Shown here: positions 45,105 through 62,570 of the stretch, one piece after another
Layout of the letters: each line of letters starts with the position of its first letter
Position numbering within the stretch: position 1 is the first letter of the stretch
Source: Bryoerythrophyllum caledonicum
Lineage: Eukaryota; Streptophyta; Bryopsida; Pottiales; Pottiaceae
Direction: 5' to 3'
DNA: 64,000 bases
Assembly (NCBI GenBank): GCA_963971425.1
Contig: OZ020523.1
Location: 17,046,867-17,110,866, forward strand
Program-made: the position numbers and the translations under genes
The notes under the pieces: generated by a model
What the model was told of the DNA's origin: nothing
The model's input: the letters and a program-made list of their open reading frames with translations, nothing else
Databases searched by the model: none

Positions 45105-45415
45105 GGTAAGCCCCCCTAAAGATAAGGAATGTGCATATATTTGGAGAGGAGATAATTATACTGTTATTTTTCAGTGATGGCCAGTAGAATTACAATTCCA
45201 ACCCAAGTGATTTCATATTTTTCTGATGAAAACTGAATTAGTTATGAATTTTCAAACTTTGCACCCATGTTTAGTGGGTGGCCAGCAGTAGGTACCCCCC
45301 ATAAACCAACGACCAAAAGTAAGGGTCTTGACTAATAGCAAACCTCCATTTGGAGCTGAGTTGGTGGTAATGGGATGGAAGAGGGTTGGATACACCCCAA
45401 TTTTATGTATGGTCA
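45105..45415 (+). repeat. Dispersed repeat family B, copy 1
   Basis: About 310 bases whose reverse complement is at 62258-62570. The phrases CCTCCATTTGG/TAATGG..GATGGAAGAGGGTTGGAT, GGTGGCCAGCAGTAGGTACC and AATTCCAACCCAAGTGAT are shared. Confidence 0.85.
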
Positions 45416-48798: not shown

Positions 48799-48802
48799 AT
48801 TC

Positions 48803-49399
48803 TGTCGTGCACAAACACATCGTGCAAAGATAACATCGTGCCAACAGGTGAGAGCGCACAATTAGAGGCAAACTCGGAGCAATGGTGACTATACTATCAC
48901 CGTTGCCTCCGTAAACAACGAAAACAATAGTTCACAAAAGAAACTAACAACCTCCAACAACCTAGGCTAGGGAAAAAGAAATAAATACCCAGACCATAAC
49001 ATTTAGTAATTGGTCTACAAGGACCCCTTTACTAACAAATAAGTGATAAACACTCACAAATCACAACAAGTCAAGTCCATGCCACTCTTCAAGAGTGAAA
49101 ACATGATATGGATGAGGCTAACGATGTGCAACACGCACACACCCTCACCTCATCACGTGGGAGACTCAACTTGAGAAAGATGAGTCTCCCTCAACCACAC
49201 GTGGAGGTCACCCGGGTTCCAAGTCCCGAGATGAGGTGTCGAAAGACACCACGGTTGCCCTAGCCGCCACGCGGCACTAAACCTAACCCTAATCTCCCAT
49301 TAGCACTAAGTCTTGGGCTCTCCGGTAACTCCACAACTCTCTAGATGGTTTCTATCCGAATACCATCTATACAAACACCTCCATGCGCCGATCCTGACA
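48803..49399 (-). repeat. Complete 597-bp LTR
   Basis: TG...CA boundaries. The first 231 bases are repeated at 49402-49632 and the last 366 at 60464-60829. Confidence 0.85.
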
Positions 49400-49401
49400 G
49401 C

Positions 49402-49632
49402 TGTCGTGCACAAACACATCGTGCAAAGATAACATCGTGCCAACAGGTGAGAGCGCACAATTAGAGGCAAACTCGGAGCAATGGTGACTATACTATCACC
49501 GTTGCCTCCGTAAACAACGAAAACAATAGTTCACAAAAGAAACTAACAACCTCCAACAACCTAGGCTAGGGAAAAAGAAATAAATACCCAGACCATAACA
49601 TTTAGTAATTGGTCTACAAGGACCCCTTTACT
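49402..49632 (-). repeat. LTR segment X (231 bp), second copy
   Basis: Appears identical to 48803-49033 and is separated from the full LTR by only the dinucleotide GC. On the minus strand the internal domain reaches it through a purine-rich GCGAAGGGGGCGAG stretch at about 49633-49646, which could be the polypurine tract. Confidence 0.85.
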
Positions 49633-49861
49633 CGCCCCCTTCGCCTGTGCTGAAGTCCCTTTCACACCGGCGAACCACACAATTAACGTAAAGTGTATGA
49701 ACGACCGAGCATGAAAACCTCTCAAGTCCAGAAAAATCAAGGTGACCTATAGAAAAGACACTAATAGACCATGTAGACAAAGGATAGGCCGGGTGCAATG
49801 AGAGCCCCATCGTTAATCGCCTCTAACACTTTTAATGGCTAGACCTTGTCTACGTAGACTC

Positions 49862-52800
49862 TTAATGTGCTAAACAATTTGGACACGACCATTGACCTAC
49901 TGGTACCTCTAGAAGAGGTGGGGTTAGACATTCTAGATGCCACCCCGTAGAACACAAGTCACAAATGACCATTGTGGCTGCCCGTTTGGCACTACCACAC
50001 AATTGACATCGCAATCCAGAGGAGATGTGAGAAATACCAGGGTTTACTGTTCCATCAATGTGTGGTAAATGGCAAGGAGCGCAATTGCGTGTGTGATCCT
50101 TCCATATCTTACCATCACGGCCCTCCAACAGTAACACTCCTGAGTGCTTCACCTCACGAACTCGCAAGATCACCCGTCCCGCTGTCACATCCAAGGTGGT
50201 GGGCGCTGCTTGCTGCAAATACACATAGTCTCCAGGAGTAAACCGTCGCACTTGCGGTCGGTAGCCTCCTCCCCGTATTGTAGCATAACGCAACGTATCC
50301 CGATGTTGAGCAATGGAAAGATTCTCCAATGCCATAGGCATCACCCGTTTGAACAAATCCGCACGTTGCTCACACACTTGAGCCCACGTATCTGGATTGT
50401 CCATGTTAGCCAACACGGTGTCAGCATCCGCCTGAATGGCCTTCGGTAATACCGGTTGCCTTCCAAACAACAACAAGTAAGGAGAAAAGGACGCCAAAGA
50501 TGCTTGCTTGCTAAACCGGTAGCCCATAGCTATCCACGGTAATTGCAAGTCCCAATCTTGATGATGTCCCTTCTTCAAACTATACTTCCGAAGCCCCCTC
50601 TTGACGGTTTGCACCATGCGCTCCGCCAAGCCATCCGCTTCGGGGTGATCCCTCGAAGTAGTGCGGTGATCTATCATCGCTCGCTCACACAACGTTTGAA
50701 ACTCACCCAAGAATTCCCTTCCTTGGTCTGTGAGAACTTCCGCTGGAGCTCCAAAGCGGCTCAATACACGATCGAGAAAAGAGTAAGCGGCCCCCTCACT
50801 AAACTTGTCAGGCAACGCCACCAACTCTATCCATTTCGAGAAGTGCTCGATCATCACCAATACATACTTGTTGTGTCGAGGTGTCACTGGCAACGGACCA
50901 GCAAAATCTAAGCTCCACCTATATCCCAAGCCCATAATTGGCAATGGTTGCAATTGTGGCATCGGAGCGTTAAAAGACGCTCGCACACGATCACAAATCA
51001 TACACCGGGCTATCAAGGCTTGAACTTGAATTTGCATACCTCGCCACCAATAGTGAAGCTGGAGCAAGCTATAAGTCCTCCGCACTCCAAAGTGCCCAAG
51101 GTCTTCATGCGTGTCCTTGATGAGCTTCACTCTCTCCAATGGAGTTGGCACAACCTTTCGCGTGCCATCCGGCCACACCCTCACAAGGTGAATCCTCTCC
51201 CACACAAACCGTTTGGCTCGTTGTGAGACCCGATCTCTCTCCTTAGCGGACCACGCAAGCACCACTTCTCCATTCTTTAGAAAATGCATCACGTTCCTGT
51301 CTTCAAAGATGTCTTTGGCGCCCCCAGATTCTTCACCGCCATCCTCATCTACCGTGGCCACAGTAGAAGCTCCGGTGTCATCTCCACGCATCGCCAATAC
51401 ACTTAGAAAGGCCGAACTATGCCAACCTGGCAACGGATCGGCTTCATCCTCCCCGTGCCACCTAGCGCCCGTAGCATCCGCTTGGTTTGGAATTGGATTG
51501 CGGCTAAGGCCGTCGGCATCCATATTCACCAATCCCGCTCTGTGCACCACCTTGAAGTCGTATTCCATCAACATCAAGGCCCACCGCGCTAGCTTGCCTG
51601 TTAGTTTGTCAGACTCCATCAACCACTTTAAAGGTTGATGATCCGTGACTAACAAGAACTCGTTACCATAAAGGTAACATCGAAAATGAGCAATTGCCCA
51701 TATGGCAGCCAAACACTCCCCTTCATACGAGCTATACTGGGCCTCCGCATTATTGTTGGACCGGCCGGCGTACGCAATGACAAACTCCTTCCCGTCGTCA
51801 TCCATTTGCGTCAACACCGCACCAATTCCCAATGCGCTCCAATCTGTGTGTAGCTGGTATGTCCTTCCGGCTATTGGCCTTCGAAGTATAGGTGCCGATG
51901 CCAAACGGTCCTTCAACTCTTGAAAGGCCACCTCTTGCTCATCTCCCCATATCCAAGGTTGATCATTCCTTGTCAACATGGTTAATGGCTTGGCAATAGC
52001 ACTGAAAGTCTTCACAAACTTTCTATAGTAATTACACAACCCCAAGAATGCACGTAGCCTACTAATATCCCTTGGTCTAGGAATAGACATCACTACTTCA
52101 ATTTTACTAGCTACCACACCCAATCCACTTGGATATATCATGTGGCCTAAGTACTCGATGCGGTCAAAGTAGAATTTGCACTTACCAGGGTGCAACTTCA
52201 AACCGTGGAGCCTCAATCTAGCAAACACTTCCATCAAGTGTAGCCTATGTTGCCTTCGATTCGTGCTAAAGACAACGATGTCGTCAATGTAGCATCTCAC
52301 GAAATCCAAGCCCGAGAATACTCGGTCCATAACCCTCTGGAATTCGGCAGGGGCATTCTTCAATCCAAATGGTAAGAATTTCCATTGGAACAACCGGTCC
52401 TTCCCATCTTTGTCAATGCCCCAGAACGCGGTCTTCTCCTTGTCTTCCTCTCTCAGTCCAATCTGGTGGTATCCAGAGCGCAAGTCCAACGTACTAAATA
52501 CCTTGGCGTGACCAATAGCCTCAAAGTTCTCCTCCGGCGTTGGCATCGCATAACGATCCGACTTGGTGAATTTGTTAATCCTCCTATAGTCCCCGCACAT
52601 CCTCTTCTCGGTCCAATTACCGTAGATATCTTTCTTGGATGGCATAACCGTCGCCGATGCATACTCGCAATCCGGTGGAGCCAACTCCACTAGCCCCGCA
52701 GCCACCAACTCCTCCGTACGAGCACGTATCATCCTCCGTTCAACGTCGCTATACTTGTACGGCTTCCGGTATATTGGTGCTTTGTCCGTCAAATTGATAT

Positions 52801-52942
52801 GTACTTCTTGCCCCTTCAATATTCCAAGATCTTCAAGACTAAAGGCAAAACAATCTAAGTACTCCCTGAGGAACTCATGTTCCTCTCTCTCAACTGCTCC
52901 ATCCGCCAGGCCTACCATCGGTTTCCAAGTATCCTTGGTCAC
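49862..52942 (-). CDS. Gypsy Pol: reverse transcriptase, RNase H, integrase and C-terminal PHD finger
   Basis: An intact 1026-codon frame, in the same frame as the upstream ORF and separated from it by one UAG, so it is probably made as a readthrough fusion; the ATG at 52942 is not needed. RT spans about 90-270 with FLPFGLKNAPAEFQ and the catalytic YIDD (218-221). RNase H has D367, E399 or E407, and D434 (LVTDHQPL). Integrase has an HHCC zinc site (H612, H617, C647, C650) and core residues D679, D739 and E775, the last two 35 residues apart. After the C-terminal beta region, residues 979-1023 form a PHD finger with C979, C982, C994, C997, H1002, C1005, C1020 and C1023 and the WHLEC core. Chromodomains are the usual C-terminal module in plant gypsy integrases, so a PHD finger is unusual. 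All catalytic residues are present. Confidence 0.95.
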   Translation of the reverse strand: MTKDTWKPMVGLADGAVEREEHEFLREYLDCFAFSLEDLGILKGQEVHINLTDKAPIYRKPYKYSDVERRMIRARTEELVAAGLVELAPPDCEYASATVMPSKKDIYGNWTEKRMCGDYRRINKFTKSDRYAMPTPEENFEAIGHAKVFSTLDLRSGYHQIGLREEDKEKTAFWGIDKDGKDRLFQWKFLPFGLKNAPAEFQRVMDRVFSGLDFVRCYIDDIVVFSTNRRQHRLHLMEVFARLRLHGLKLHPGKCKFYFDRIEYLGHMIYPSGLGVVASKIEVVMSIPRPRDISRLRAFLGLCNYYRKFVKTFSAIAKPLTMLTRNDQPWIWGDEQEVAFQELKDRLASAPILRRPIAGRTYQLHTDWSALGIGAVLTQMDDDGKEFVIAYAGRSNNNAEAQYSSYEGECLAAIWAIAHFRCYLYGNEFLLVTDHQPLKWLMESDKLTGKLARWALMLMEYDFKVVHRAGLVNMDADGLSRNPIPNQADATGARWHGEDEADPLPGWHSSAFLSVLAMRGDDTGASTVATVDEDGGEESGGAKDIFEDRNVMHFLKNGEVVLAWSAKERDRVSQRAKRFVWERIHLVRVWPDGTRKVVPTPLERVKLIKDTHEDLGHFGVRRTYSLLQLHYWWRGMQIQVQALIARCMICDRVRASFNAPMPQLQPLPIMGLGYRWSLDFAGPLPVTPRHNKYVLVMIEHFSKWIELVALPDKFSEGAAYSFLDRVLSRFGAPAEVLTDQGREFLGEFQTLCERAMIDHRTTSRDHPEADGLAERMVQTVKRGLRKYSLKKGHHQDWDLQLPWIAMGYRFSKQASLASFSPYLLLFGRQPVLPKAIQADADTVLANMDNPDTWAQVCEQRADLFKRVMPMALENLSIAQHRDTLRYATIRGGGYRPQVRRFTPGDYVYLQQAAPTTLDVTAGRVILRVREVKHSGVLLLEGRDGKIWKDHTRNCAPCHLPHIDGTVNPGISHISSGLRCQLCGSAKRAATMVICDLCSTGWHLECLTPPLLEVPVGQWSCPNCLAH
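49874..50008 (-). other. PHD finger at the integrase C-terminus
   Basis: Cys4-His-Cys3 spacing (C-x2-C, C-x2-C, H-x2-C, C-x2-C) with ICDLCSTGWHLECL between the second and third pairs. PHD fingers commonly bind histone H3 tails. Here the finger could steer integration, by analogy with integrase chromodomains. Confidence 0.9.
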
Positions 52943-52987
52943 CGCCTCCTTCGGTTCCTTTGGAGCAGGATTCTCCTTCCTTGGTTG

Positions 52988-52990
52988 CTA
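52988..52990 (-). promoter_or_regulatory. Probable programmed UAG readthrough site between Gag-Pro-MTase and Pol
   Basis: The minus-strand codons are ATC CAA TAG CAA CCA AGG. This fits the tobamovirus-type readthrough context UAG-CAR-YYA, including the upstream CAA. The next 15 codons are open and lead in frame into Pol. It would give a low ratio of Gag-Pro-MTase-Pol to Gag-Pro-MTase. Confidence 0.75.
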
Positions 52991-55900
52991 TTGGATGCCA
53001 TGCGAAGGAGAATCCTCTCCTTCCACCTCCACCAAGCTTCCAAGTCCTTCCAATTGGCATAGTTTGCCAATTCTCTCCCTTTGGTGAGTTGTGTGTTCTC
53101 CCACGAACACAGCCTCCTCCAAATCCTTCGTTTGGTGGGCCAATTCCCTACTTCGGTTCCAATCCTTCACTCCATGAAGAGGATCCTCAGTCTTGGGTGT
53201 CGCGAAAAGGTTCGCGGAGCTCCACATATTCCATGGGTGAAGTGCCAAGGCCTTCTCGCCCCCAACCACTTTGCCTGTTACCTTGACAGAGACAAATGGT
53301 TCTCCGGCCGCCCGCAACTCATAAGACCCCATGTAACCAGTAAAACTAGAAGCCAACCGCTTCTGTTCTGCCACTAGCAACGAAACGATCCACGTCAAGC
53401 AATTTAAGTCCATCGCTTGCCCAAGTAAAAATCGCCGTTGGTGCTCCGAGATCCCGGGTGCATCGGTAGTGCCCGTGGAAAATCCCATGGCTCTCTCCCG
53501 TTCATCCGCATTAGGCTCCACCATCTCTTGAGACAAGGAATCCCACACAAGACCCGGGCCGTTATCCTTAAAGGCATACGACCGAGCAAAACTAACCAAC
53601 GTGGGCAATGCCCTACGTGGTTCTCCTTTGCGGTTGACGACCGCCAAAGGTGCTTGGTCGTCATGATAAACGCGCCGCGGTGCCCTGTGAGGATCCAAAA
53701 TATCACTCACGTAGACATCCGGCCGTTTAATTCGACCCACAACGGACTGTAACAACTCTTGAGGTGCTAAATTCGTCCACCACAATCGCGGGCGATGTGC
53801 TCGCGATCCCACCGCAGCTGCATCCAACAATACGGGCATACCCAGAGTCTGGTGTATGCGGTGCATGCCCTCTAATGTCCTCGACCTCGAGCTACTCATC
53901 ACTGGTACATTCTCCACAATGTAACCTGGTGGTCGCTTCTGAGAGGTTTGAAGCAAAGACAATACCCGAATCATATCATGAAACCGCGAAGAACGAGTGT
54001 CTTTCAACCCGTTTTGATGTCCAGCCATTGACAATCCTTGACATGGCCATCCCGCGATGACAAGGTCCACATGGCCAACACGTTGAATATCCTCTGCTGA
54101 AAGCAAAGCAATATCACCAACAAGAGTAGAAAATGAAGTCTTGATGGCACTAGTGGCCAACAAGTTTGGAAATTGGGTCCTCAATCGCCGTGAATGCCGC
54201 TTAGCCACGTGCCTTGCTGCCTCATCAACATCTACGTAGATGTAGCGTTTGACCTTCATCCCTGCTTGCAGCACTGCCGCCAAGCCACTTCCAATCCCTC
54301 CGAACAACTCCAACAACACAATACCATCCTCTGGTACCTTCCACTGAATGGTGGAAGTGTCTAGACGTCGGCCCAAGTCTTGGTCCACTCGAGAATCATA
54401 TTCCGATTGTGGGAGTATCGAATGCTGCCAAGCATCTTCAATGACCTGTGCCGCATCCTTCTGAAGTTGAGTCGTGGTCCTCCACGCTGCTTCTATGCCA
54501 GGTTGATACATCTCTGTATCTCCACCACTTGTGTCACCCACTTGGGCATCCATCTCGTGAAGTGTAGGAGTATCCATCGAGAAAGTAGCACAACCCTTGT
54601 GAAAGCATGATGGTCCCACATCCATACCTCCTGAGAAGGCAAACACGTCTGCAAGATTGCCAGTCAGAACTCGAATAAAACGAGCTGGCAGCTGAGCCTT
54701 CCGCCCATCTCCTGCTTGCCATCCTGGTCTATAACTTGCGGTTTCCTCCCAGAAATCCAAGGTGAACCCCATGGGGTATAGCACCGCCGAGCCCACCAAG
54801 ACATCGTATGACTTGGCCTCCGTTACTATAGCTTTCACCTTCATAAAGCTTGCATCCTCGACGTCATCTTCGTTGAGTCGTAAAATCAACTCTTCCTTTG
54901 TGATGCCTGTAGCATGCTCCGTACCCCCCATGGAAGTGCTAATTGTCCATGGACACTTCTCCAAAGTGTCCCCAGTCAAACCCAACCCCTCACGGGCAGA
55001 TGCTCCCAGCATCAATGGTTGAGCTCCTGAATCCAAAAGCACTCGTCGAGGCACAAATACCCTCCCCTTGGGCCCAACAAGTTGGAAAATCCCCTGGGAG
55101 TTGTCAACCACCACCACACCAGGTGTAATGGATGACCTCTCGATTGCAGGTCTGGCGGCCATGGTCTTGACACGCATAGCTGCTGAAAGCAGCCCCTCCA
55201 CGTTGTCCTCTTGACTCTTATCCACCTCTCCTTCAATCACTTCCGTCTTCAACGCATTGACGCCCGTGGAGTCACCCGACTCACACATTTGAGCCGCCAT
55301 CTTGAAGACCGCCGCTGCATTGAAGCCCTCTTGTGACATCAATTTAGCAGAAAATAATGAAGCCTCACAAACCACGTTTGCTGCTTCTCTCACCACCGTA
55401 GTTGGTGGCTCTACAATCCCAACGGTAGGACGAGTTGTTGACACCCCCCGACGCGTTGGAGGCACCATGGAAGATGTTGGCACCATCTCCTCCAACGTGA
55501 AAGACTCTGGCAATCGAGCTTGCCGGTTGTCCTTTCCATGTTGAGGATCCAAGGTTGGACTTGCTCCACGTGGAACCTCCTTCGTCACCGGTGTTTGACT
55601 CCGCGTAAGGGCATAAGCCTCCCGTGAGCCATCCGTGATAGCAAGTGCCATGCCACTTAGCATATAGTCCCCGAATTCGTCATCTTCGAGCCTAAACCCG
55701 CCCCCAGCATGAAAACTAGGAGTGACTTGGGGCTTCTCACTTACTGAAGCAGCATTCGCGCTCATGGCCGCCATCTTAGCCTCCAACTCCGCGAATTTGG
55801 ACTTCCAGCCTTTCTTGTCTCCTCCCGAAGACTTGGACTCTTTCTCCTTGTTGCTTGCCTTGGTTCCCTTGCCTCCAGAAGGCTTCAACTCCGGGTGAAG

Positions 55901-56983
55901 CTTCCAACACTTCGCCTCGGAATGCCCCTTGGCACCACAACCAGAGCAATAGCCACCGGTTTGAGGGGTAGATGACTTACTTTCCTTGCAATCCTTCTTC
56001 AAATGCCCCGGTTTGCCACAACTAAAGCATAATGCTTCAGTGTCGGTGGCATAGGAGGGAACCGAAGCCTTGGCCACCTTGACCTTTTCAGGAATCTTCT
56101 CTTCACGTTTGAGAAATCCCATGGCCGCTTTCTCCTCCAATAAATTGATCTCAATTCTCTCGGAAGTCTCGAATACAAATCTCAAAGTCGGTGGCTCACC
56201 CAATCGCAATGCCTCATTGCGAACTAAGGTCTTCAACTCCTTCTCTAGGATGTTGTACCAGTGCTGCACCGCTTGCTGCTCCGTGACTCCGTGAGTGGCA
56301 GAAATCAGTCTCCGCAATCTCGCATGAGCTTCTCGCAAGGATTCATCTCCTCCTCGCGCAAAAGACCTCAATGCCTTCATCTTATCCGCCCGTTGACCTT
56401 GATAGTCTCGACGGATCTGTGTGAAGAACATGGCCGTAGGGTTAAACGGAGGTGGAATAGCCACCGTTTCCATCGGTTGGCTCAAGTCCTCGGCACCACT
56501 CGTGCCCTCCTCCTGCTTCCCCTTTCCCACACGTGATGGCACACTCGGCGCTCCGCCGAATACATCCGCGTAATTCGGTGCATAGAAATCCCTCCATGCC
56601 AATATCTCTGTGAGGTGAGCCGCCTCGAATTCTCCATAATCCGCTAACGGAGCTCCCTCTAGACATCCAAATAACGCCCTCCACACCATGTAAGGGTTGA
56701 AGTTGGGGTTGCGAGACTTCTGGAGTTCACACCACATGGTGAACTCCCTCTTGAAGTCATCCGCTTCGATAGTGCCCGTGGCACCCGAAAACCGTCGCAC
56801 CCCCCGTTCTCCTCCTCCATATGGTGAAGCCATCTCCTCCCAATCAAAAATTGATTGCAAAGGTTTTCTTGGTGGGGAACTTGCACTACGTACCAAAGAT
56901 TCCACCACAAACTCACGTTCTTCTACTATCGGTTGAACCGTATCCTCCTCTTCCTTCGATTGAGTGGTAACTTCCTCCACCAC
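52988..56983 (-). CDS. Gag, zinc knuckles, aspartic protease and C5 cytosine DNA methyltransferase
   Basis: An intact 1331-codon frame. Residues 1-300 are gag (PPPFNPTAMFFTQI at 178-191). Two CCHC knuckles are at 319-332 (CFSCGKPGHLKKDC) and 346-359 (CSGCGAKGHSEAKC). A lysine-rich linker follows, then the aspartic protease active site LLDSGAQ at 649-655. Residues 885-1210 are a complete canonical-order C5 methyltransferase: motif I VLLELFGGIGSG (889-900), motif IV WPCQGLS with the catalytic Cys at 981, motif VI ENV (1024-1026), motif VIII RAHRPRLWW (1061-1069) and a motif X region RRFLLGQAMDLN (1183-1194). The DAAxVGSRAHRPR and ERAMGF..TDA..RRFLLG phrases resemble DNMT3-type enzymes. The first ATG in this frame is at 56833; translation may instead enter by frameshift from the leader ORF. 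It could methylate the element's own cDNA or host DNA. Confidence 0.95.
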   Translation of the reverse strand: MVEEVTTQSKEEEDTVQPIVEEREFVVESLVRSASSPPRKPLQSIFDWEEMASPYGGGERGVRRFSGATGTIEADDFKREFTMWCELQKSRNPNFNPYMVWRALFGCLEGAPLADYGEFEAAHLTEILAWRDFYAPNYADVFGGAPSVPSRVGKGKQEEGTSGAEDLSQPMETVAIPPPFNPTAMFFTQIRRDYQGQRADKMKALRSFARGGDESLREAHARLRRLISATHGVTEQQAVQHWYNILEKELKTLVRNEALRLGEPPTLRFVFETSERIEINLLEEKAAMGFLKREEKIPEKVKVAKASVPSYATDTEALCFSCGKPGHLKKDCKESKSSTPQTGGYCSGCGAKGHSEAKCWKLHPELKPSGGKGTKASNKEKESKSSGGDKKGWKSKFAELEAKMAAMSANAASVSEKPQVTPSFHAGGGFRLEDDEFGDYMLSGMALAITDGSREAYALTRSQTPVTKEVPRGASPTLDPQHGKDNRQARLPESFTLEEMVPTSSMVPPTRRGVSTTRPTVGIVEPPTTVVREAANVVCEASLFSAKLMSQEGFNAAAVFKMAAQMCESGDSTGVNALKTEVIEGEVDKSQEDNVEGLLSAAMRVKTMAARPAIERSSITPGVVVVDNSQGIFQLVGPKGRVFVPRRVLLDSGAQPLMLGASAREGLGLTGDTLEKCPWTISTSMGGTEHATGITKEELILRLNEDDVEDASFMKVKAIVTEAKSYDVLVGSAVLYPMGFTLDFWEETASYRPGWQAGDGRKAQLPARFIRVLTGNLADVFAFSGGMDVGPSCFHKGCATFSMDTPTLHEMDAQVGDTSGGDTEMYQPGIEAAWRTTTQLQKDAAQVIEDAWQHSILPQSEYDSRVDQDLGRRLDTSTIQWKVPEDGIVLLELFGGIGSGLAAVLQAGMKVKRYIYVDVDEAARHVAKRHSRRLRTQFPNLLATSAIKTSFSTLVGDIALLSAEDIQRVGHVDLVIAGWPCQGLSMAGHQNGLKDTRSSRFHDMIRVLSLLQTSQKRPPGYIVENVPVMSSSRSRTLEGMHRIHQTLGMPVLLDAAAVGSRAHRPRLWWTNLAPQELLQSVVGRIKRPDVYVSDILDPHRAPRRVYHDDQAPLAVVNRKGEPRRALPTLVSFARSYAFKDNGPGLVWDSLSQEMVEPNADERERAMGFSTGTTDAPGISEHQRRFLLGQAMDLNCLTWIVSLLVAEQKRLASSFTGYMGSYELRAAGEPFVSVKVTGKVVGGEKALALHPWNMWSSANLFATPKTEDPLHGVKDWNRSRELAHQTKDLEEAVFVGEHTTHQRERIGKLCQLEGLGSLVEVEGEDSPSHGIQ
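53354..54331 (-). other. C5 DNA methyltransferase domain, all catalytic motifs present
   Basis: Encodes residues about 885-1210 of the ORF. Motif order is I, IV, VI, VIII, then X, so it is not the rearranged order of plant DRM enzymes. The distance from PCQ to ENV (43 residues) and the DNMT3-like VIII and X phrases suggest a de novo-type enzyme. Confidence 0.9.
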
Positions 56984-57069
56984 TCGTTCACGAACGCCTA
57001 CCGCAAATGGGGTGTTTCTCCGAGTGAAACCGGGCCCCTTCCACGTCTCCAGATTGAGAATTGGTTAGC

Positions 57070-57711
57070 TCAATCAAAGAAGCGCCATGCTTCATGAGTG
57101 CCCTTCTTCTCCGGAGCGTAGATGGTGGGTGGTACTTCCCAATCGAGTAGCTCCAACGTGAGTGTGTCCCACACACTGCTGGCCCGCTCTCGCCACGTAC
57201 CCACTTCCCACTGCCACGTAGTATGAAATACGAAGCCTTCACTCTCAAACTCGGTAAAGATGAGGGAGAACGTGGGCAATTGGTTCCCTCGGCGGAAATC
57301 CACCACTTCCACGGTGTATCTTGACCCAACGTTCTAGAGGACAACGGCCTTCTCTCCAACCACAAGATCCACGGCTTCAACTTGGCCTCGTGCACGACAA
57401 AGAGGAGCTCGAACACCCTCCTTAGCCCGAAGCGCTCGAACTTTGCGCACCCCACCAAGTGAAGTCCAATACTTCACGGACTCTTCGCTTAGCACCTTCG
57501 TGCCTGGTTTTCGCAAGTCTTGAGTCCCGGTTCGAGACTTGGCTATAGGAGATAACTCAAAATCCCTACCACTAGAGCTTGCCTGGGAAGATGAAGATTT
57601 AACTTGCAAATCTTGGAGGCAAGTAATCAATTGACTAAGGGTTTCGGTGCTGATCTCTACCGTGGATGCACTAGACTCTTTTGATTCCTTCTTCTTTCCT
57701 CCACTATCCAT
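57070..57711 (-). pseudogene. Leader ORF upstream of gag, with one in-frame UAG
   Basis: ATG at 57711 (MDSGGKKKESK) opens a frame of 213 codons to a TGA at about 57070, interrupted once by TAG at 57334-57336 after AVVL. A Ser-rich, leucine-containing first part (ETLSQLITCLQDLQ, coiled-coil-like) is followed by a basic segment and, after the TAG, a beta-rich part with FRRGNQLPTFSLIF and WEVGTWRERA. The next ORF is in another frame, with a TAA between. It may be the true gag N-terminus broken by a UAG and a frameshift, or a separate small ORF. The UAG context (UAG AAC) is not a readthrough consensus. Confidence 0.5.
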
Positions 57712-57726
57712 GTCCCATATGCTCAA

Positions 57727-59360
57727 TGCAACCCACTCTTTTTACGTGGTTGTATTAAGTGGGCTCACAATGGATGTTAGGGGAATGCTAGATTAGGGGA
57801 ATGCTAGAATTTCACTTTTTGTTCACTATCATATGTCACACTTAGCTCACGTGATGCAACACATCAACAGTGTGCACAACAATTTGATGAGAACAACCCA
57901 AAGTCTAGCCATACATGATCCCCATAATCCAAATTTCTAGACGAAGTACAAGAGGAAAGCGACAATGTCACTCACCATCCCATACCTCTACTAGTCACTC
58001 CCCAAAGGTGGCAAAGTGCAAGAAAAAGGTGACTATGGCACCCAATATCCCACAACTCTTCCAATCACTCTCACAAGCAAATTGGCAAGGGTAAGAAGTG
58101 GGCAACAATGGTACCTACTATCCCACACCTTCACCTCTTACAAGAATGACGAAGAGCAAGAAGAAGGTGACTATGGCACCCGCTCTCCCGCACTTTCACC
58201 ACTTACTAACAAGATGCAACATACAAACTTGTCACTCCCCCAAGCAACCGACTACCCCCTCCCAACGCGGGTCCGGATACGTTACCTTGTTGAAGTTGTC
58301 TTGGGCCTTCAAATAGCTACCACTAGCTACTCCTAGAGAAAACCCTAAATTCAATCAAAGCCTTATAATGCCACATAAAAGAAGCTGGCTTTTCTCTAAA
58401 ACCACACAAAGTCCTAGGATAACACCCTAAAATTCTAAGTGATCAAAATCACTAGAAACGGGCAGATCTTGCACTAACATGTGCACAAAGGCTATCATGT
58501 GTTCAAGCATGTATCATTCTCACATGGAGACAATTGAACAACCTTGAAACAATTGCAATATGCAATTCCAACGAAATTTTGGCAACGCTTCCGCATCACC
58601 AAAGCACCACAAAAATTCACAAGACGCCAGAAGTGAACAAACTCACATCCATGGAATAGCACGCACAATTGAAGAGGCAACTCACCTCAACAATCCTCTG
58701 GACCCCAATTTCGGTGAACGAAGAACCCTCTTTCAGGCCATTCTCCCAAGCCGCAGCAATATTGGAGATCCTCCTTCAAGCTGTGCCCTCAGTGTCCACG
58801 ACATGCAGCACCACCGTCGCTTCTCGTCGACGTCCGGTCCTCTTCCACTTCTCCAGCTTCCAGGGCAGCCACCATAGGCAACATCCTCCCGCACCAGACC
58901 GTGCTTCTCTCCTAACGAAATACGGCCACCAACTTCAAGCACCGCATGCACTTAGGGTGCTCCAAAACCAGCATACACCAGCAGATGCTCGAATGTCGCC
59001 GAAGACACCACAGTTGACAGCGAAAAATACAAGGATCGAGAGTAACACCTCTGGGAGAACCACTCCAACTCGTGCGAAAAGCGGATCACCCCCTCCAGCA
59101 ACCGGTGAAAGAGATGTTTTACAACTCAGTTGTGTTCTCAAGCAACTCAGTTGTGCCGAAATTGCGTTTGGCGGCACAAATGGAAACTTTGCTCCTCACG
59201 TCCCGGGTAGGTGAAATAATTTCCCCACTCCACCACCGACACAAACATACACCAACGTAGGAGCAACGATCACTCTTCAGTAGAAGCAATCCTTCTCGAG
59301 CGCCGTACCACCGTCTATCCCAGCAACTCCGTCAACCTTGCTTGTGACCACATTAGGTCT
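57727..59360. other. Element 5' untranslated region with degenerate tandem repeats
   Basis: 57957-58205 contains about three copies of an 85-95 bp unit marked by AAGGTGACTATGGCACCC (exact at 58027 and 58165, altered to CAACAATGGTACCTAC at 58105), each followed by a TATCCCACA/TCTCCCGCA phrase. The remainder shows no gene I can support. Confidence 0.5.
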
Positions 59361-59912
59361 CTAAGGTGGACAGCACAAACGCAGAACTCCCGACAACCGC
59401 TGCAGCTCATCCAATCCCAAAATTGTGATGATGTCCTGCAGGTTCTTGTAATTCTGCAGCACCTTCTGTACGTCACGCGCGCAGTAGTAGATAGTCGAAT
59501 CCAGAGGGCCTATCGCAAGGTAGATACCCAGCTCCGAAATCTGACGGGACAGCGTCGTCGTTGCCTGCAGATGGTCGAACGTCGTCGCCAGAGCAGGATC
59601 CGTCAAGTCGTCCGCCGGCACGTAGCTCGCCTGCACCGACGTGATCGTACCCTTCTGCGTCGTCTTGATATGCTCCTGCACCGTTGTGCGCCGAACTCGC
59701 AATGTCCACGAGATCCTCGTCCTCTCCCAGGACCACCTTGTCGTCGCTGCTGCTATCCCTGCGGGTTCCGATACCAGGTCCGCTTCCGGCGGCCAGCTCC
59801 TGCCGAACACCGCCTCTCGCAGCAGCTCCGCGCTCACTCGCCTTCGTCCAGACTGCTTCCGACCCCTCTGTCTCCAACTTGCGTGAAACTCCGGCACTCA
59901 CAGCCTTCCTAA
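59361..59912 (-). pseudogene. Captured mitochondrial ATP synthase beta subunit fragment
   Basis: The minus frame 59681-59370 reads [20 protein letters not shown], then [12 protein letters not shown] and [15 protein letters not shown], near-identical to conserved stretches of the mitochondrial F1 beta subunit (nuclear ATP2 type; the chloroplast form reads differently at [10 protein letters not shown] and VQKVLQNY). About 14 residues normally between DSTS and the VQKVL helix are replaced by a short odd sequence, and homology ends after LDEL. The upstream part (59912-59690) is Arg/Ala-rich and unassigned. Codons are GC-rich compared with the rest of the element. It lies in sense between the 5' LTR piece and the leader ORF, consistent with capture by the retroelement. 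It cannot make an active beta subunit. Confidence 0.85.
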
Positions 59913-60463
59913 TCACGCCGCCTCGCAGAGCTCCATTCCAGTAGAAGTCTATTTCTCAAACTCTTTCGTTCCCTCGCACACACACCTTCCTACAACATGT
60001 GAGAAGGCTCCTGTATCAAGCTGCTAGTCACGATCTCAACTGGAGTCATGCACTTGTCGCCCAACACCTTCGAGTCGCTCAAGTACTCAGACAGCATCCA
60101 CCAACGTCGGTTGAAGGACAGATTAACACGGCATCAGGTGCGACGCAGCATCCATAACTCCAAGAGTGTGCTCCGCTTCTGCAGCTTCAACGCCGCAAGC
60201 TCCCCAAACTCCGACTCTCTTCTGGTTCGTTCTGCTGGAGTAGCACCTCTAGTAGTTGGTCTTCTTACTTCGTCATCGACATGCTCAAACCCCACGCCGC
60301 GCCGTTGGGCTCACTAATAGGTCGGAACCTCCAACCCCTCTACTTCTAGAGATTAGAAACCCTCGTGTCCAAACACAAATTTTAAGCAAGGTTCTCCAAA
60401 CCACATTTAGATGTACATAATGTTGTGGTTACACCGATTTCCACAACATGATCTTTCTCAAGT
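59913..60463. other. Internal 5' end of the gypsy element
   Basis: No gene is supported. The last bases before the LTR segment (GATCTTTCTCAAG) repeat, inverted, a phrase inside the LTR. No primer-binding site was recognised. Confidence 0.35.
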
Positions 60464-60829
60464 AACAAATAAGTGATAAACACTCACAAATCACAACAAG
60501 TCAAGTCCATGCCACTCTTCAAGAGTGAAAACATGATATGGATGAGGCTAACGATGTGCAACACGCACACACCCTCACCTCATCACATGGGAGACTCAAC
60601 TTGAGAAAGATGAGTCTCCCTCAACCACACGTGGAGGTCACCCGGGTTCCAAGTCCCGAGATGAGGTGTCGAAAGACACCACGGTTGCCCTAGCCGCCAC
60701 GCGGCACTAAACCTAACCCTAATCTCCCATTAGCACTAAGTCTTGGGCTCTCCGGTAACTCCACAACTCTCTAGATGGTTTCTATCCGAATACCATCTAT
60801 ACAAACACCTCCATGCGCCGATCCTGACA
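60464..60829 (-). repeat. LTR segment Y (366 bp), second copy
   Basis: Matches 49034-49399 with one G/A difference seen inside a CACGTG. It ends in CA at the outer target repeat. No tRNA-like primer-binding site was recognised just inside it. Confidence 0.85.
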
Positions 60830-60833
60830 ATTC

Positions 60834-62257: not shown

Positions 62258-62570
62258 ACGCCTGTAAAATTGGGGTATATCCAACCCTCTTCCATCCCAT
62301 TACCATTAAATGGAGGTTTGCTATTAGACAAGACCCTTACTTTTGGTCGTTGGTTATGAGGGGTACCTACTGCTGGCCACCCACTAAACATGGCTGCACA
62401 GTTTGAATATTCATAACTAGTTCAGTTTTCATCAGAAAAATATGAAATCACTTGGGTTGGAATTGTAATTCTATTGGCTATCACTAGAAAATAATAGCAT
62501 AATTATCTCCTCTCTAAATATATGCACATTCCTTAACTTCTCGATTTCAGGGGGCTTACCTTAGATCTCG
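62258..62570 (-). repeat. Dispersed repeat family B, copy 2 (inverted)
   Basis: Reverse complement of 45105-45415 with only modest divergence, including the ends (GGTAAGCCCCC phrase). No coding sequence. Confidence 0.85.

Follow-up and report, generated by a model that had tools for sequence, protein, structure and literature searches.

Introduction

That a retroelement can carry a DNMT3-type methyltransferase and split repeats is not a new principle: it was published in 2018, when de Mendoza et al. (PMC5890265) described KnitGypsy-Dnmt3 from the alga Klebsormidium nitens and the SymbioDIRS-Dnmt3 and SymbioLINE-Dnmt elements of dinoflagellates, cases to which a 2025 paper refers (PMC12344493). 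Here we describe a Ty3/gypsy-type element with permuted repeats that encodes such an enzyme in the moss Bryoerythrophyllum caledonicum. It lies in a stretch of 64,000 nucleotides of GenBank assembly GCA_963971425.1 (contig OZ020523.1, positions 17,046,867 to 17,110,866 of the forward strand), hereafter the window, whose numbering is used throughout.

The moss element shares with KnitGypsy-Dnmt3, the nearest system described so far, its Gypsy-type domains, an unrearranged Dnmt3-type domain, purifying selection and DIRS-like A-coding-B-A-B repeats, and differs from it in host and in gene order: the algal methyltransferase lies in the Pol reading frame, whereas here a gag-protease-methyltransferase frame precedes a predicted leaky TAG (PMC5890265). 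SymbioDIRS has the same A-coding-B-A-B repeats, and its enzymes methylate CG in yeast; SymbioDIRS and SymbioLINE, however, use a tyrosine recombinase or LINE machinery where the moss element has a DDE integrase (PMC5890265). Split direct repeats are also found in tyrosine recombinase elements of the DIRS and Ngaro types (PMC5890265), which the moss element does not resemble in its rve integrase and 4-bp target duplications. Tf1/Sushi and the plant Tcn1 chromoviruses combine predicted self-priming with a histone-reader-like module after the integrase, as here (PMC6317226, PMC4600332), but chromoviruses bear a chromodomain where the moss element bears a PHD finger, and the split repeats and methyltransferase set it further apart.

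The first-pass annotation of this DNA, made from the sequence alone, was right in naming charophyte algae and dinoflagellates as precedents (PMC5890265). It knew of no report for this kind of plant; our literature search, with subscription journals mostly outside its reach, likewise met no moss or liverwort report of such an element, although relatives among Marchantia, Sphagnum and Closterium protein records mean that it is not peculiar to one plant. The same search found no PHD finger on such an integrase and no self-priming reported in the clade; the terms PHD, Marchantia and target site are absent from the main text of PMC5890265, and the parts of that paper that we read have no word on priming for KnitGypsy-Dnmt3. 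What is new is thus a land-plant member, a methyltransferase placed with gag before a predicted leaky stop, a PHD finger, predicted self-priming and evidence for the mode of integration.

Results

A DNMT3-type methyltransferase in the gag-side reading frame

The element occupies 12,027 bp (48803..60829), and its repeats, reading frames and priming sequences all lie on the minus strand. Two repeats, A and B, are arranged as A-internal-B-A-B, and the limits are set by these repeats and by the 4-bp duplication ATTC outside both ends. The first open reading frame (ORF1, 52988..56983) is open for 1331 codons and encodes, by the ORF list and Pfam, gag, two CCHC knuckles (55904..56032, limits approximate), an aspartic protease region (54788..55051) and a methyltransferase domain (residues 885-1210; 53354..54331). 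Pfam placed a zinc knuckle (residues 319-334) and the C5 methylase core (residues 951-1067, E 1.8e-13) above its cut-off, and Retrotrans_gag (residues 186-243) and an aspartyl protease (PF13650, residues 645-732, E 0.0053) below it; the second knuckle was recognised by reading the sequence. The first-pass annotation had reported this intact frame and its order of domains correctly, its coordinates being those of ORF1 alone rather than of the element.

The methyltransferase has motifs I (ELFGGIGSG), IV (GWPCQG, with the catalytic Cys 981 at codon 54041-54043), VI (ENV), VIII (SRAHRPRLWW) and IX/X, in canonical, unrearranged order, as had been read at first pass. PCQ and ENV are retained in all 21 aligned ORF1 copies. 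Neither Cys 981 nor the Glu of ENV varies in an alignment of the window with 39 relatives, a chosen set from which the Sphagnum and Volvox records were left out. In a sequence search of the PDB, DNMT3A came top (3e-13), with DNMT3B at 7e-10, DRM2 at 3.5e-7, HhaI at 5e-6 and DNMT1 at 0.56; entry 4onj, labelled just "DNA methyltransferase" and presumably tobacco DRM, gave an E value of 1.2e-9. A DRM-type rearranged enzyme was rejected, as the motif order is canonical and DRM scores lower than DNMT3. An AlphaFold2 model of the domain, built from an input alignment of 40 sequences, reached a mean local confidence (pLDDT) of 95.0 and a predicted TM-score (pTM) of 0.93, and all 50 Foldseek matches listed for it were DNMT3 proteins or complexes. 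On sequence and model, the ORF1 domain is a complete DNMT3-type cytosine methyltransferase with its catalytic motifs in order and a DNMT3 fold, for which DNA methylation is predicted. The original description of a Ty3-gypsy element with a DNMT3-like enzyme is thereby upheld by Pfam domain order, PDB ranking and fold.

The domain is retained and selected across copies

A search of the 437 Mb assembly (894 contigs) located the element at no fewer than 57 distinct places, in two subfamilies; the searches score best candidates only, making this a lower bound. Forty-five copies were picked by their pol sequence. Of these, 23 pair with an ORF1 match reaching the methyltransferase, with the same ORF1-ORF2 spacing in 21; 20 of the remaining 22 were fetched (two were left out), and every one bears methyltransferase sequence, split by ~3.5 kb in one and with frame shifts or a gap in some. 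The domain is therefore present in 43 of the 43 pol-picked copies examined, and on this ground chance or an assembly join was rejected as its source.

Selection within subfamily 1 was assessed on 21 ORF1 copies, namely that of the window and 20 from a list of 34 others, chosen by protein score. The ratio of nonsynonymous to synonymous polymorphism (pN/pS) for the methyltransferase was 0.24 (0.16-0.35) over the 21 copies and 0.15 (0.08-0.25) over the ten free of stops, with intervals that are too narrow because copy pairs are not independent. Elsewhere in ORF1 the 21 copies gave 0.21 for gag, 0.42 for the protease, 1.09 for the adjoining spacer and 0.65 for the tail. Between subfamilies, ten stop-free subfamily-1 copies were compared with nine of the 11 fetched subfamily-2 copies, the other two being excluded for an indel or frame shift. 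The ratio of nonsynonymous to synonymous divergence (dN/dS) was 0.04 (0.02-0.06) for the methyltransferase, the lowest point estimate among the seven regions of ORF1, against 0.06 (0.04-0.11) for gag, 0.10 for the protease, 0.22 for the spacer and 0.40 for the tail. Because dS is above 1 for five of the seven, the ratios should be taken as approximate. Judged by both comparisons, the domain is under purifying selection. The two grounds for doubt raised at first pass, copies without the domain at this place and an absence of such selection, are thus contradicted by the data.

Among the 21 copies, CpG sites show 0.052 transitions per site against 0.019 elsewhere (2.8-fold), and 14 of 19 in-frame stops are consistent with a C-to-T or G-to-A change. 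Inserted copies are therefore probably methylated, whether by the host or by the element.

Relatives and the age of the association

Searching with the methyltransferase returned 64 proteins, the best from Marchantia polymorpha (56%) and others from Sphagnum fallax and Closterium; searching with integrase and PHD finger returned 344, and the 120 listed include Klebsormidium nitens, Marchantia, Haematococcus and Volvox africanus. The methyltransferase of relatives stands either before the reverse transcriptase, as in the moss element, or between RNase H and integrase. One branch (support 100/97) separates the two placements in a 79-row tree, in which the placement of rows without reverse transcriptase was judged by distance to the integrase. 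A FastTree integrase tree (147 rows treed; methyltransferase state missing for 42 of 151 labelled rows) splits the same groups, again with rows lacking reverse transcriptase placed by distance to the integrase; the exceptions are a truncated Marchantia model and one set of domain-less rows. P0147, P0173 and P0154, with no detected methyltransferase domain, fall within the other-position group. Since both trees separate the placements, a single old association of methyltransferase and element, with a single change of position, is likely. The clade's named members come from a liverwort, a moss and streptophyte algae, a spread that suggests an old association rather than a lone capture within a single alga.

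The K. nitens integrase-PHD protein P0072 matches 72% of the query part at 54% identity and falls with the window in a 55-row integrase clade (local support 98, FastTree only); it is partial and without a methyltransferase, and so need not be KnitGypsy-Dnmt3 itself. P0068, from a Trinity transcript assembly (source eukprot), is 73% identical over ORF2 residues 600-1026, which suggests that elements of this kind are transcribed somewhere.

A predicted leaky stop leads into pol and a PHD finger

ORF1 and ORF2 share one frame, divided by a single TAG (52988..52990) in the context CAA TAG CAA CCA, with pol following in that frame. UAG_CAR_YYA is the tobamovirus-type readthrough motif (PMC3542737). 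Of 20 subfamily-1 copies fetched, 19 have TAG at this place and the other CAG, with CAACCA next in 19; a further nine all have TAG, and TAGCAACC is retained in ten of 11 subfamily-2 copies, the eleventh having CAG. We predict from this context and its conservation that the TAG is leaky. Readthrough driven by a pseudoknot was rejected for want of a marked fold, a weak rejection since the computed fold excluded pseudoknots.

ORF2 (49862..52942) encodes, by Pfam, reverse transcriptase, RNase H, integrase (H2C2, rve) and, at the integrase C terminus, a PHD finger (residues 979-1023; 49874..50008; PF00628, E 1.8e-9, with matching PDB entries). The annotation, which had overlooked both the TAG between the frames and the PHD finger, was in this respect incomplete. 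The best solved relatives of the finger are those of PHF12, CHD4, KMT2C (listed as an MLL3 homolog), KDM5, PHF21A and ATXR5. Several of these PHD fingers read unmodified H3K4. The PHD profile matches 141 of 184 collected relatives, and many of the others are ORF1-type or partial proteins without pol. A PHD also occurs among the C-terminal domains of one family of Ginger1 DNA transposons, a group whose integrase is Gypsy-like (PMC2836005). Membership of the chromoviruses was rejected, Pfam giving a PHD finger and no chromodomain after the integrase.

The order protease, reverse transcriptase, RNase H and integrase with a DDE (rve) core is of Ty3/gypsy type, the protease match being below cut-off. 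Two identical full long terminal repeats (LTRs) around the coding part are not what this family has, its layout being A-internal-B-A-B or A-internal-B; we therefore call it Ty3/gypsy-type, with permuted repeats.

Split repeats with integrase-type footprints

From its 5′ end, the element begins with A1 (367 nt, 60463..60829, starting TGTCAGG) and closes with B1 (230 nt, 49402..49631), a GC spacer (49400-49401) inside the palindrome GACAGCTGTC, A2 (367 nt, 49033..49399) and B2 (230 nt, 48803..49032, ending CGACA). Its target site duplication lies at 48799..48802 (ATTC on the plus strand, GAAT on the minus) and 60830..60833 (ATTC on the plus strand). A1 and A2 differ at one of 367 positions, B1 and B2 at none of 230. 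The near-identical LTR pieces noticed at first pass are thus real repeats, but split ones rather than plain LTRs.

Ten further subfamily-1 copies were fetched at both ends, making 11 with the window. The whole of A runs directly into internal sequence in six, the window included, and the stretch stops within A in five; the 3′ end is B in four, BAB in four (again including the window), a longer array in one and out of view in two. Both flanks are in view in eight subfamily-1 copies, each of which has a perfect 4-bp duplication. Both fetched subfamily-2 copies have the A-internal-B-A-B order, the GACAGCTGTC junction and 4-bp duplications, with repeats that match those of subfamily 1 at ~75% over alignable parts, so that duplications flank ten of ten full copies with both ends seen. 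This footprint matches the DDE integrase that the element encodes rather than a tyrosine recombinase. A DIRS assignment was likewise rejected, as Pfam finds no tyrosine recombinase in either frame and target duplications are present.

B, part of B or AB abuts upstream in 38 of the 42 AB units among the matches listed. The remaining four (L095-L098) are solo units, three with 4-bp duplications, as expected if A1 and A2 recombine; they are the split-repeat counterpart of solo LTRs. One element copy (G000:C9:22325590-22327617) finishes in a tandem array of three or more AB units.

A candidate self-primer in repeat A

A 33-nt hairpin within A1 (60588..60620) has the same sequence in subfamily 2. 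In its loop region lies the predicted self-primer ATCTTTCTCAAGT (60599-60611), to which the predicted primer binding site ACTTGAGAAAGAT (60451..60463), at the junction of A1 and internal sequence, is complementary over 13 nt in both subfamilies. Dinucleotide shuffles gave 13-nt complementarity in none of 3000 cases and 12 nt in one. The loop sequence is unchanged in nine of nine subfamily-1 ends that cover it and in two of two from subfamily 2. At the junction, five of six subfamily-1 copies match exactly (L031 has one mismatch), as do two of two from subfamily 2. In an alignment of one A-plus-junction stretch from each subfamily, 66% identical, the longest identical runs, of 33 and 18 nt, contain the hairpin loop and the primer site. 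These matches suggest that the element primes its own reverse transcription from the hairpin in A. Self-priming has been predicted for plant Tcn1 elements (PMC6317226) and likewise for Tj1 and Tf1 (PMC4600332). An ordinary tRNA primer was rejected, as no TGG stands immediately 3′ of A1 (judged by eye). A polypurine-like tract, GGCGAAGGGGGCGA (49632..49645), abuts B1.

Other features of the locus and the assembly

The leader upstream of gag holds an ORF of 130 aa (57334-57726), and a spliced or non-ATG start of ORF1 is possible; set against 182 collected proteins, the leader ORF gave a single non-significant match (E 0.67). The leader also contains a 61-nt direct repeat in four imperfect copies (57939-58207). 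Inverted arms 17 kb apart (45119-45379 and 62280-62539) bracket the whole element, complementary at 93% over 186 nt and at 82% over 76 nt, and are perhaps another mobile element that served as a landing site.

The assembly contains two full-length plastid-type matK genes, 69% identical, on contigs C821 and C894 (loci L093 and L094). One is nearest to Bartramia pomiformis among named matches (79%; best overall 84%), and the other, compared solely with the 120 matches listed for the first, is 92-93% identical to Cinclidotus and Barbula. By these sequences, the host is most probably a moss, and plastid DNA of a second moss is present in the assembly.

Discussion

We favour, at a probability of about 0.55, the reading that this is a Ty3/gypsy-type retrotransposon with a selected DNMT3-type methyltransferase in its gag-side polyprotein, from where it would be packaged with the particle and likely methylate the element's own DNA copy before insertion. 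RNA would start in A1 and be primed by the element's own hairpin region at the site adjoining A1, as in Tf1. Most ribosomes would halt at the TAG, yielding Gag-protease-methyltransferase, and a minority would read through into pol; because the methyltransferase precedes the TAG, it would be made in Gag-like rather than Pol-like amounts. The enzyme may then act on the new double-stranded DNA, probably at CG, and it is this methylation of the element's own cDNA that we infer; the first-pass annotation had proposed the element's cDNA or host chromatin as the target. DNA so methylated might resemble that of the host, or be protected or pre-marked on arrival. The integrase, with the PHD finger steering it towards a histone state, would insert DNA ending at the B|A junction, giving A-internal-B(-A-B).

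Several observations weigh against this scheme. KnitGypsy-Dnmt3 showed no methylation in yeast, a result that its authors call inconclusive (PMC5890265), and the CpG transition excess is explicable by host methylation alone. The Sphagnum fallax record is, as we read its sequence, without the motif IV stretch, and the Volvox africanus relative P0144 keeps a methyltransferase module before the integrase in which PCQ is lost; the active site is therefore not kept by every relative. ORF1 opens at a listed GTG with no ATG there, a putative gag start only. CAG replaces TAG in 1 of 20 fetched subfamily-1 and 1 of 11 subfamily-2 copies, possibly dead ones, and no marked RNA fold was found downstream of the TAG (z-score -1.3; 16 of 200 shuffles fold equally well). 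In the minimum-energy fold of a 186-nt leader stretch (z-score -5.7) the hairpin stays closed and unpaired with the primer site. Four of the nine subfamily-1 copies with visible 3′ repeats are A-internal-B only, with no second A for strand transfer.

The methyltransferase might instead work in trans on host chromatin, where it would methylate host genes or rival elements, or limit damage by silencing older copies of the element itself. DNMT3 proteins act on chromatin, which supports this alternative, as do the DNMT3 fold and the fact that readthrough would join the enzyme to a PHD-finger integrase; host-wide effects have also been discussed for Symbiodinium by de Mendoza et al. (PMC5890265). 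The gag-side position would, however, leave most molecules without a PHD finger, and K. nitens, which bears such elements, has a plant-like methylome (PMC5890265), so we regard a role in trans as unlikely. Slightly less probable again is retention of the domain for something other than DNA methylation, such as methylation of RNA or nucleic-acid binding in the particle with catalysis unimportant. The domain adjoins gag and CCHC knuckles, activity was not demonstrated in the clade in the experiments of PMC5890265, and the Volvox and Sphagnum records just described fit such a role. Against it stand the invariant Cys 981 and ENV Glu of the window and its 39 chosen relatives, PCQ in 21 of 21 copies, and a nearest class that is DNMT3 and not DNMT2. 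That the split repeats have no part in a life cycle and arose from ordinary LTRs, through unequal exchange, a nested insertion or an assembly error, is very improbable: the number of AB units does vary (B, BAB, longer arrays), as from unequal exchange, and the same kind of exchange could yield solo AB units, but the junction recurs in 38 of 42 listed units, the diverged subfamily 2 has the same layout with its own duplications in both copies, and this layout is published for K. nitens (PMC5890265).

Returning to an element that methylates its own copy, the repeats permit a wider and more tentative proposal. From the positions of the primer binding site and polypurine-like tract, an LTR made by reverse transcription would be B-A, whereas the element as inserted has A at one end and B at the other. 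This mismatch would disappear if a joined intermediate were cut at B|A. The moss element could thus belong to a green-lineage clade with a permuted cycle, in which self-primed cDNA with a B-A LTR would be circularised and cut by the DDE integrase at B|A (GACA-GC-TGTC). Insertion would then leave A-internal-B or, for two-LTR circles, A-internal-B-A-B. With its gag-side DNMT3 and PHD-finger integrase, such a clade would deliver pre-methylated DNA to chosen chromatin. This proposal is less probable than self-methylation as such, and the 5′-extended forms that it leads one to expect from two-LTR circles were seen in none of the six copies with A1 read through. If true, it would be an integration mode between those of Gypsy and DIRS, and permuted repeats with integrase-type footprints make the insertion of split-repeat elements testable.

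Cytosine methylation is how plants classically fight transposons, and this transposon retains its own methyltransferase, conserved between subfamilies as strictly as any part of ORF1. The present moss genome and the Marchantia and Sphagnum protein records place such elements in non-vascular land plants, and moss laboratories possess the methylome, mutant and long-read tools with which this one can be tested.

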